Below are positions 24,814-26,909 of a DNA stretch of 43,131 nt, one piece after another. How positions within the stretch are numbered: position 1 is the first letter of the stretch; each line of letters begins with the position of its first letter. The notes beneath the pieces were generated by a model, which was not told the origin of the DNA, searched no databases, and worked only from the letters and a program-made list of their open reading frames with translations. Origin of the DNA: Anaerolineae bacterium (GTDB lineage: Bacteria > Chloroflexota > Anaerolineae > Aggregatilineales > Phototrophicaceae); the NCBI GenBank assembly GCA_023382675.1, contig JAHDWN010000048.1:1-43131 (forward strand), given 5' to 3'. The position numbers were made by a program, and so were the translations under genes.

Positions 24814-26028
24814 CTAATGATTCGATGACCGTCGTCGCACCTGGGCGTAGAGGATCAACGTGACCAGCGCGCCCAGGATACCCATTACAAGGCCATTAAG
24901 GCCTGGGTACCAGTCGAAAAGTCCAACCGCTATGAAGATCGCTGCGAGCCACCCCGCAAGGACGAGTACGACCACAAGCCACGTAGTCACAGCGCTGAAC
25001 CTGCGCAGTGCGAGACCATTCAATGGGCCACCCGACAGCATGATGCCTAGCACGCGCAGCAGCAAACTTCGCTTGCCGGGCACGATGAATGTCCCGCCCA
25101 GCACGCGTTGAGTGAAGATCCCATGCACGAAGATGCCAATCGTGAAAAACAAGAACCCAGCAAGGTCATTAACGGCGAAAATTGAGCACAAGCCAAAGAT
25201 CGCACCGCTGCCGACCAGGAAGATCGCGCCCAGGGCGATCGTAAGGGTAGGTGTGGGCTGCACCGAGCCTGATCGCTCGCGTTTGGGAGCAGCTCGCTGC
25301 TCACCCTTCGCCTGTGGTGCTTCCTCGGCTGCGTCCGGCTGGCGCTCACGATCACGGCGCGAGAACAGTCGCGCGGAGACCGGGCGGCTGGATTGCAGCA
25401 GATCCTCGATTTCACGGTCGATCTTGGCGTAGAGGTCATCGCGCCGGCGCAGGCGTTCCAGCAGCCCGCGTGCTTCCTCCGGGCTGTCGCCTTCCTGCAG
25501 CCGTTCCTTCAGTTTGAAAATGAGGCTGGCCTGCTCGTCGAATGTCAGTTGCGGGCTGTCGATCTGCTCGCGCAGCTTGCCGACGTAGGACAGCGGCACG
25601 GGCGGCGGTTCCGGCAGCGCATCGGGCAGCGGTGCAGCCGCCGGCGCACTGTTGAGCGCGCTGACCAGCCGAAATGCAGCTTGCGAATCTTGCGAGGTGT
25701 AGTCGACGAACTGGATCAATTGCAGCTCGTCCGGCAGTTGATGAATCGGGACGTCGCCATCCATCTTGACCGGCAGCACTGGCTTGCCCAGCTTGTGGGC
25801 GTAGGTATATTCCAGCTTGCAGGCATACGACTCGAGCGCCTCGCTCGTCAGTGCGAAGACGAAGATGTCGCAGCGCCGAATCTCGTCCAGGATTGTGTCC
25901 CACCATGCCTGCCCGCCGGTAAGCTGATGATCGAACCAGATTTCGTGCCCCGTGATGCCAAGGTCTTCGGCCAATTTCGCGACAATAGGTTTACTCTTGC
26001 TGCTGTAACTAATGAAGATGCGATACAT
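24814..26028 (-). CDS. TIR-domain protein with C-terminal membrane region
   Basis: This is a 404-residue protein. Residues 1-130 form a TIR domain: RIFISYSSKSKP, FDHQLTGGQAWWDTI in the BB-loop region, and SYACKLEYTYA, with E73 in the NADase position. A Pro-rich linker (about 133-147) leads to a helical segment (LREQIDSPQLTFDEQASLIFKLKERL, LERLRRRDDLYAKIDREIEDLL), possibly a coiled coil. A charged stretch and four hydrophobic helices (LTIALGAIFLVGSGAIFGL, LAGFLFFTIGIFVHGIF, WLVVVLVLAGWLAAIFIAVGL, LNGLVMGILGALVTLILYA) complete the protein. The TIR faces the cytoplasm with a C-terminal membrane anchor. Function is inferred as stress or defence signalling. It has its own 260-nt upstream region. 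Confidence 0.88.
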   Translation of the reverse strand: MYRIFISYSSKSKPIVAKLAEDLGITGHEIWFDHQLTGGQAWWDTILDEIRRCDIFVFALTSEALESYACKLEYTYAHKLGKPVLPVKMDGDVPIHQLPDELQLIQFVDYTSQDSQAAFRLVSALNSAPAAAPLPDALPEPPPVPLSYVGKLREQIDSPQLTFDEQASLIFKLKERLQEGDSPEEARGLLERLRRRDDLYAKIDREIEDLLQSSRPVSARLFSRRDRERQPDAAEEAPQAKGEQRAAPKRERSGSVQPTPTLTIALGAIFLVGSGAIFGLCSIFAVNDLAGFLFFTIGIFVHGIFTQRVLGGTFIVPGKRSLLLRVLGIMLSGGPLNGLALRRFSAVTTWLVVVLVLAGWLAAIFIAVGLFDWYPGLNGLVMGILGALVTLILYAQVRRRSSNH

Positions 26029-26288: not shown

Positions 26289-26780
26289 TCATGCACCCCA
26301 GTCGGATTTGCTGGTGAGCACCAGCACGGGGTTGGTCGGGTCGTTGGTCGGCACGTGGACGCGGAATTCGTGCGGGCCGCCCATGCCTTCAGTCATCGTG
26401 TAGCGCAGGCTAATGGTGGCTTCTTGACCGGGACGTATGGTCGTCGAACTGACGACAGCGTTCGGCGGTCAACAACCCTCGACCGTCTCGACCTGCGGAT
26501 TGCTCGCGATCATCAGCGGTTGATCACCGATGTTGCGGATGCGAAACAGGCTTTCGACCGGGTTGCCATACGGCTGTGCGCCGTGGTCGATGGTCGTCTG
26601 TTCGATCTCCGCGCGCGGCGCGCCCGTGACCTCCGCCACGAACGGCTCGCTGGTGCCGCTCGCCAGCGCCGCGACGACCGCCGCGATCACCGCCAGCACG
26701 GCGATGATGATGCCCGGCAGCAGCCACGCCGGGCGCTGTTGTGGTGGGCTGGCTGCGCTTTGACTGCGCTTCTTGCTCAT
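26289..26780 (-). CDS. putative selenoprotein, DUF1573-like membrane-anchored protein
   Basis: Read through one in-frame TGA (26469-26471), this is a 163-residue protein. It has one membrane helix (about 19-40), then a DUF1573-like domain facing outward. Before the TGA: PVESLFRIRNIGDQPLMIA and VETVEGC103. After it: PPNAVVSSTTIRPGQEATISL, YTMTEGMGGPHEF, VHVPTNDPTNPVL and SDWGA. The codon pattern, frame and family similarity continue unbroken across the TGA. Related proteins, as I recall the family, carry Cys-Cys-Pro-Pro here, so position 104 is probably selenocysteine in a Cys-Sec pair. A hairpin (26440-26456) sits where a bacterial SECIS should be. Without readthrough the product would stop at 103 residues. 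A G-rich tract precedes the ATG. A nonsense mutation or sequencing error is the alternative. Confidence 0.72.
26440..26456 (-). promoter_or_regulatory. candidate bacterial SECIS hairpin
   Basis: On the minus strand, 12 nt after the in-frame TGA, GTCGTC and GACGAC pair perfectly around the loop AGUUC. The apical G-U lies about 20 nt past the TGA, within the range known for bacterial SECIS elements. Confidence 0.55.
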
Positions 26781-26881
26781 GTGGTATCCCCCCCCGTTGA
26801 GCATGACTCTCTCTAGCGATAGTGTGTATTTTAGCTTTCCTGACCGATTCACTGCAATGCATTCAACTATCGACACCAACA

Positions 26882-26909
26882 CGTAGAGCGTGGCTGCCCA
26901 CGCTCTACG
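26882..26909. repeat. 12-bp perfect hairpin
   Basis: CGTAGAGCGTGG and CCACGCTCTACG enclose CTGC. It lies downstream of the DoxX gene and upstream of the selenoprotein gene. No T-tract follows on the minus strand, so it is either a REP-like element or a weak processing or termination site. Confidence 0.6.

Follow-up and report, generated by a model that had tools for sequence, protein, structure and literature searches.

The locus considered here raises a simple question: does a TGA in the middle of a reading frame end the protein, or is it read as selenocysteine (Sec)? The gene in question lies on the minus strand, at 26289-26780, of contig JAHDWN010000048.1 from the Anaerolineae bacterium assembly GCA_023382675.1 (Chloroflexota; Aggregatilineales; Phototrophicaceae); the whole stretch analysed, 43,131 nucleotides (nt), is called the window below. 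In our opinion it is very likely that the gene encodes a selenoprotein of 163 residues, in which the internal UGA would be read as Sec104. The UGA is kept as a sense codon across a family of genes, it exchanges with Cys codons, it is followed by a covarying hairpin, and it occurs together with the Sec machinery. From these sequence data we infer both that Sec is actually inserted and what the protein may do.

A sense TGA that recurs and exchanges with cysteine

The frame opens with an ATG at 26780-26778 and covers 103 codons up to Cys103 (26472-26474). Immediately after it comes the TGA (26469-26471), and 59 further codons separate this from a terminal TGA at 26291-26289. A first-pass annotation, made from the sequence alone, had described this arrangement and named PGQEATISL, EGMGGPHEF, TNDPTNP and SDWG as family features beyond the TGA; frame and peptides are indeed all found in the translation. 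Mechanical calling of open reading frames closes the frame at the internal TGA and gives 137 codons counted from a GTG at 26882, while a purine run, GGGGGGGG, which by eye resembles a ribosome-binding site, stands ahead of the ATG (26788-26795, minus strand). The read-through translation scores 265.5 bits against the family profile with one in-frame TGA, and 40.5 bits against PF07610 (DUF1573; gathering cut-off 26.1). Because the PF07610 match covers residues 58-152, it spans the TGA.

A lone TGA in one draft contig would look just the same if it were a point mutation, an assembly error or the first step of pseudogene decay, with the downstream homology left as a relic. The distribution of the family makes this explanation exceedingly improbable. 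A first scan of named GTDB genomes returned six relatives: four metagenome-assembled genomes (MAGs) of Anaerolineae with Cys-Cys-Pro-Pro, the form that the first-pass annotation had expected for the family, one Caldilineales MAG with Cys-TGA-Pro-Pro, and one distant DUF1573 protein from Bacteroidales. The sequence of the Caldilineales MAG (L028; Caldilineales are Chloroflexota) is identical over 72 nt to that of a genome of the window's own class (L031). When 396 class genomes were searched with a profile (E 1e-8), 89 matched, with the TGA form in 64 and Cys forms only in five. In two partial matches (G325 and G257) the contig stops short of the Sec codon; most of the remaining matches are weak and without TGA, and those weak ones that were fetched are canonical DUF1573 domains. 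In a sample of 400 genomes from the phylum, 24 had a match (E 1e-10), and the TGA form is present in 10 genomes outside the class. The genome of the window itself carries a second DUF1573 gene, 57% identical, in which both Cys-TGA-Pro-Pro and the stem recur unchanged; a search of plasmid records with the window protein gave no match.

After removal of identical windows, the collection holds 84 TGA sites (the window's included) and 12 sites with another codon, which in 12 of 12 cases is a Cys codon; Sec would thus be the majority state, at 84 of 96 sites. TGA stands at this codon in 84 sites, which come from 64 genomes of the class, and also in 10 genomes of the phylum outside it, with the surrounding frame kept; for the family as a whole, this recurrence rules out decay and error alike. 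One sequence from genome G213 does carry a one-base frameshift after the hairpin, which could be taken as a sign of decay, though it looks like a repeated contig end. The two loci concerned, L084 and L118, lie at the start and at the end, respectively, of the single contig of G213 and share 6.7 kb at 99.97% identity. Two gaps interrupt the match, and one of these throws the selenoprotein copy out of frame. L118 is probably an untrimmed circular overlap and not a third gene. Since it probably duplicates L084, a count of 83 TGA sites is safer, and 79 of these 83 have all six stem pairs described below.

The exchange of Cys and TGA at this codon has happened repeatedly. On a tree of 105 rows, built without L117 and L118 and with Sec and its Cys counterpart masked, the distribution of Sec and Cys calls for no fewer than six changes, five of which are forced by the starred branches; the tree rests on few columns and has many open forks. 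An alignment of homologues across the TGA, as the first-pass annotation had proposed, thus does reveal the Cys/TGA exchange, at least five times on the tree.

The hairpin and the selenocysteine machinery

If the UGA is to be read as Sec in bacteria, one would look for a bacterial selenocysteine insertion sequence (bSECIS) behind it. The hairpin GUCGUC-AGUUC-GACGAC starts 12 nt past the TGA (26440-26456, minus strand; arms 26451-26456 and 26440-26445, loop AGUUC 26446-26450), precisely as the first-pass annotation had it, and the spacing from UGA to loop is 18 nt. The published limits for bSECIS elements, as given in the Fig 2 legend of PMC13188914, are a loop of 3-9 nt, a stem of 4-16 base pairs (bp), a G within the first two loop positions, a spacing of 16-37 nt and a minimum free energy (MFE) of at most -7.5. 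The window hairpin lies within these limits with a loop of 5, a stem of 6, a spacing of 18 and an MFE of -8.2 kcal/mol for 30 nt. The 30-nt fold by itself reaches no significance (z -0.81); the 52 nt from the UGA fold at -17.6 kcal/mol (z -2.56). Folding also offers a possible lower helix, UGACCG/CGGUCA, that would close the element in the window copy (26425-26471, minus strand). The alignment consensus retains just two of its pairs, which fall in Pro and Gly codons and never vary; being both invariant and constrained by the protein, they are no evidence for that helix.

The case for the upper stem comes from the family. All six stem pairs form in 80 of the 84 TGA sites and five form in the other four, where 12.5 fully paired sites would be expected if synonymous codons were drawn for the same peptides. 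None of the 12 Cys-coded sites has all six pairs; their mean is 2.5 pairs against 2.45 under the null, and one site has five. In an alignment of 81 of the 84 sites (L093 and L094, which are shifted by 3 nt, and L118 left out), 99.2% of cells are paired across the six stem pairs, and both partners of a pair have changed in 69 cells, where shuffles give 22.2. The covariation of the stem is 0.425 against 0.229 when shuffled, with 0 of 500 shuffles as high, and sliding the partner by 1 to 3 columns lets pairing fall to 6-70%. Within the class, changes of both partners are seen at three of the six pairs, and two pairs are constant. Outside it, stems were counted for 11 of the 14 TGA places (a twelfth, L133, is displayed without being counted), and 10 of these 11 hairpins are paired at all six positions, for example as GTGGCG/CGCCAC, GTCGTA/TACGAC or GTCGTG/CACGAC; both pairs that are fixed inside the class therefore do vary there, and they vary as pairs. 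The loop starts with AGU or GGU in 82 of 83 sites among the fetched loci. It is clear that the stem, taken across the family, goes far beyond chance and that the hairpin is under selection. Folding homologues was another of the proposals made with the first-pass annotation, and its outcome is a conserved, covarying bSECIS-like element. The commonest stems accompany different peptides (AVVSSTTI- and VVGSTTL-like as against LTIGSMVL), which suggests that the RNA hairpin shapes the protein.

The machinery that would be needed is encoded in the same genome, where all four sel genes that the first-pass annotation had named for a search are present: a tRNA-Sec (selC; 72.4 bits, also called as tRNA-SeC by ARAGORN), selB (367.6 bits, cut-off 242.25), selA (549.9, cut-off 267.9) and selD (370.1, cut-off 125, with one in-frame TGA). 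The selD gene (locus L022, 1489-2436, on contig G000:C17) has its TGA near the start and is a selenoprotein SelD of a known kind, which makes it a useful positive control within the genome. Of the 64 TGA genomes of the class, 63 have one or more of tRNA-Sec, selA and selB, and under stricter filters tRNA-Sec is over the cut-off in 56 of 64; of the eight genomes that remain, five have selA, two have selB and one, G128, has none of the three. Five genomes hold no form but the Cys-coded one: G326, which is a single contig, and G288 have none of the three, and two others have all three. The fifth, G222, has a tRNA-Sec (C15:49250-49342), no match for selA or selB and two Cys-coded copies, and looks like a case of recent loss of the Sec trait.

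Several observations weigh against reading the window gene as a selenoprotein gene. The TGA genome G128 (1110 contigs) was found without tRNA-Sec, selA or selB; G147, of the same genus, carries tRNA-Sec and selA. The co-occurrence of TGA and Sec trait is weak evidence alone, because selA is over its cut-off in 315 of the 396 class genomes anyway; it agrees with the selenoprotein reading without proving it. On the tree, the nearest relatives of the window copy outside its own genome carry Cys. Finally, the stem of the window copy taken alone is within what codon choice gives by chance, since 17% of synonymous-codon draws yield six pairs.

It might be argued that the UGA is read as some other amino acid, or that it is a plain regulated stop and the main product is a truncated protein of 103 residues. 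Insertion of Sec is often inefficient, so a truncated form may arise too. In our opinion this explanation is nevertheless very unlikely to be the main one, for tRNA-Sec and SelB are present, the non-TGA sites carry Cys in 12 of 12 cases, and the hairpin is under selection. A truncated form would moreover lose three invariant residues (Met129, Met133 and His137) and, according to the structural model, the last four of nine strands. We reject another sense meaning of the TGA because of the Cys exchange and the presence of tRNA-Sec.

The product and its relation to known DUF1573 selenoproteins

We thus return to the selenoprotein and to the protein that it would be. An AlphaFold2 model built on 32 aligned members (predicted local distance difference test score, pLDDT, 92.3) consists of a helix at residues 20-40 and a nine-strand beta sandwich. 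The helix (26661-26723, minus strand) coincides with a hydrophobic stretch in most alignment rows and is predicted to be a single membrane anchor, in line with the membrane-tethered product that the first-pass annotation had predicted. The sandwich (residues ~57-162; 26289-26612, minus strand) is an immunoglobulin-like (Ig-like) domain of the DUF1573/ASH type, according to PF07610, the model and the fold match. Its closest solved fold is 2QSV, a Porphyromonas gingivalis protein of unknown function (22% identity, Z 13.5 over 105 residues), followed by ASH, HYDIN and PapD-type domains. Comparison with these Ig-like folds gives no functional lead.

A second set of conserved residues probably lies in another loop of the domain. 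Met129 (26394-26396), Met133 (26382-26384) and His137 (26370-26372), all within 26370-26396 of the minus strand, are each invariant in 82 of 82 TGA rows that have a letter there (83 rows in all) and in 12 of 12 Cys rows. All five residues that could serve as soft-metal ligands, namely Cys103, Sec/Cys104, Met129, Met133 and His137, are invariant, and we propose the Met and His residues as metal ligands together with the Cys-Sec pair.

How new is such a protein? The family could simply belong to the described OS_HP2/DUF1573 selenoproteins (NF041425/PF07610), with which it shares the DUF1573 domain family, a predicted Sec protein and Cys homologues. NF041425 matches most members, 24 of 32 aligned ones at E 1e-4, and PF07610 is over its cut-off. 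Yet the window protein scores only 36.2 bits with NF041425, below its cut-off of 100; the best E-value among the 32 members, 1.4e-11, is by inference far from 100 bits as well, and in an NCBIfam scan of four proteins none reaches any cut-off. The motif also differs. In the literature, the motif of DUF1573 selenoproteins is given as UGC (PMC9312934, PMC13188914; U standing for Sec) and that of OS_HP2 as UxC (PMC2398784), whereas here one finds Cys-Sec-Pro-Pro with invariant Met129, Met133 and His137. The order in the window is GCU and not UGC; we take the published motif to place Sec at the first Cys of CGC.

Canonical DUF1573 proteins with an SCGCT-like motif (L141, L142 and L149-L163) share the domain and its Asn-x-Gly and Pro-Gly landmarks, but by eye no Met-x3-Met-x3-His was seen in these 17 listed loci. 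In two printed profile alignments their second Cys falls on Cys103, with a gap at Sec104 and Pro105. L142 is aligned otherwise, and because it is placed differently from L141 and L153, the column of the Sec varies with the alignment, a point in favour of plain membership in OS_HP2. Taking both sides together, we consider such membership unlikely. A Cys-Sec-Pro-Pro family was not seen in the literature searched on DUF1573, OS_HP2 and Chloroflexota selenoproteins, as far as that literature was covered. On this footing, what looks new is the Cys-Sec-Pro-Pro subfamily, together with its Met/His residues and its wide occurrence in the phylum; DUF1573 selenoproteins as such are already known. The earlier claim of a new selenoprotein should accordingly be narrowed: DUF1573 was already listed as a selenoprotein family, and it is the subfamily that looks new.

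Gene neighbours and a possible copper role

What might the protein do? We can offer a scheme, at present hypothetical. Ribosomes would read the internal UGA as Sec by means of tRNA-Sec and SelB, and the hairpin that starts 12 nt further on would direct them to do so. The product, 163 residues long, would be anchored in the membrane by a single helix near its N-terminus; its Ig-like domain, which probably lies outside the cytoplasm, would bear the vicinal Cys103-Sec104 followed by Pro, along with the invariant Met129, Met133 and His137. The Cys-Sec pair, with the Met and His of the other loop, would then handle Cu(I) or thiol redox for CuA-type partners. The likeliest mechanism, a guess to which we give an even chance, is that the site binds Cu(I) or reduces a disulfide and so serves the assembly or upkeep of partners of the CuA-type cupredoxin and cytochrome c kinds; the guess is drawn from the genes that relatives adjoin, namely those for CuA cupredoxin, cytochrome c and PCYCGC proteins.

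These neighbours were counted over 95 loci, which include some doubly counted places (L048/L119, L028/L031 and, in part, L084/L118). A same-strand gene lies within 250 nt upstream in 79 of them; 75 of these 79 upstream proteins and 52 of 53 downstream ones were scanned, with repeats left out. Among the 75, a COX2/CuA domain is present in 33, cytochrome c in 35 and PCYCGC in 11; with NosZ-type models 34 of them give a match at E 1e-4, as do 11 with the CYCXC model. By single-linkage clusters, each named by one representative, cytochrome c/CuA genes occur in 54 of the 95 loci, PCYCGC in 42, membrane ferredoxins of the Fer4_5 type in 31 and P-ATPases judged by eye to be of the copper type in 30. 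The second copy in the genome of the window has a cytochrome c gene upstream and is followed, on the opposite strand, by a gene that by eye encodes a metal P-type ATPase. Two features of the neighbourhood sit badly with a copper role: sensor kinases occur in 32 of the 95 loci and are unexplained by it, and the window copy has no directly adjoining copper gene.

The neighbour of the window copy is DoxX-like. The first-pass annotation had pointed to it as a redox-type membrane protein; a DoxX-like gene does adjoin, but the match is weak (23.0 bits, cut-off 23.6) and the pairing is not conserved in relatives, as DoxX is shared by 2 of 52 downstream neighbours and lies outside the 25 commonest families of the 75 upstream neighbours. 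An operon with DoxX is accordingly unsupported. Between the two genes, at 26882-26909, two 12-bp arms form a perfect inverted repeat around a loop of 4 nt; it has no T run, and a terminator scan did not call it. Elsewhere nearby, the minus strand at 24814-26028 encodes a protein starting MYRIFISYSSKSKPIV, TIR-like by eye, for which an NCBIfam scan gave no match.

A referee might well prefer a different function for the selenoprotein: that of a thiol/selenol oxidoreductase carrying out peroxide, disulfide or selenenylsulfide chemistry on envelope partners, and not that of a copper chaperone. A vicinal Cys-Sec pair readily forms a selenenylsulfide, and there are redox proteins among the neighbours, with single cases of AhpC/TSA and DsbD-type genes. 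On the other hand, the model and the listed fold matches are Ig-like and not thioredoxin-like, the invariant Met129, Met133 and His137 are unneeded for plain redox chemistry and suit Cu(I), and CuA partners lead the upstream neighbours. We regard the oxidoreductase as a possible reading, at something short of an even chance.

The copper role can be compared with known systems. The CuA-site copper chaperones Sco, PCuAC and NosL are membrane-anchored or periplasmic, use thiol and Met/His ligands and have CuA neighbours. The likeness would lie in the anchor, in the thiol, Met and His ligands and in the CuA neighbours, and the difference in the Sec of the proposed site. None of the three appears among the fold matches listed, which excludes nothing. 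Tentatively, then, the family may be a selenocysteine copper chaperone, that is, a widespread, membrane-tethered, Ig-fold Cys-Sec/Met/His site for Cu(I) serving CuA maturation. The same tentative proposal has it that in some genomes the protein is paired with a second selenoprotein, kin of CYCXC, in one operon around a CuA cupredoxin.

The second selenoprotein deserves a few words. PCYCGC/CYCXC-like neighbours with an internal TGA are found in L038 (2501-2968), L056 (1047-1496) and L058 (1020-1490), all on the minus strand, so that in these loci the Cys-Sec gene adjoins a gene for a selenoprotein of another family. Their TGA lies in the motif HAFGUSIC or HAFGUTIC and is followed by a stem of its own with the loop CGGGA or CGTGA; an internal TGA at the motif is present in 3 of the 55 genes of PCYCGC/CYCXC kin found in the loci. 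In L038 the order, by eye, is PCYCGC(Sec), a cupredoxin with the CuA-type motif CSVSCGTLHPFM, and then the selenoprotein, with the first two genes overlapping by ATGA. CYCXC/OS_HP4 (NF041379/PF13798) is likewise a listed selenoprotein family (UxxC) with kin encoded beside the Cys-Sec gene. It is a partner and not a homologue, and the three Sec neighbours score 71-73 bits against the NF041379 cut-off of 90.

Because standard gene callers end the frame at the TGA, the gene is probably annotated in truncated form in the genomes that contain it. With Sec as the majority state, at 84 of 96 sites, there may be a sizeable use of selenium in the many members of the class that encode the Sec pathway. 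With the subfamily, the DUF1573 fold would have two Sec motifs, and its hairpins are a set of short, covarying bSECIS elements on which hairpin recognition by SelB can be studied in a phylum that has received little attention. If the copper role is true, selenium use in these bacteria would be tied to the assembly of copper enzymes.
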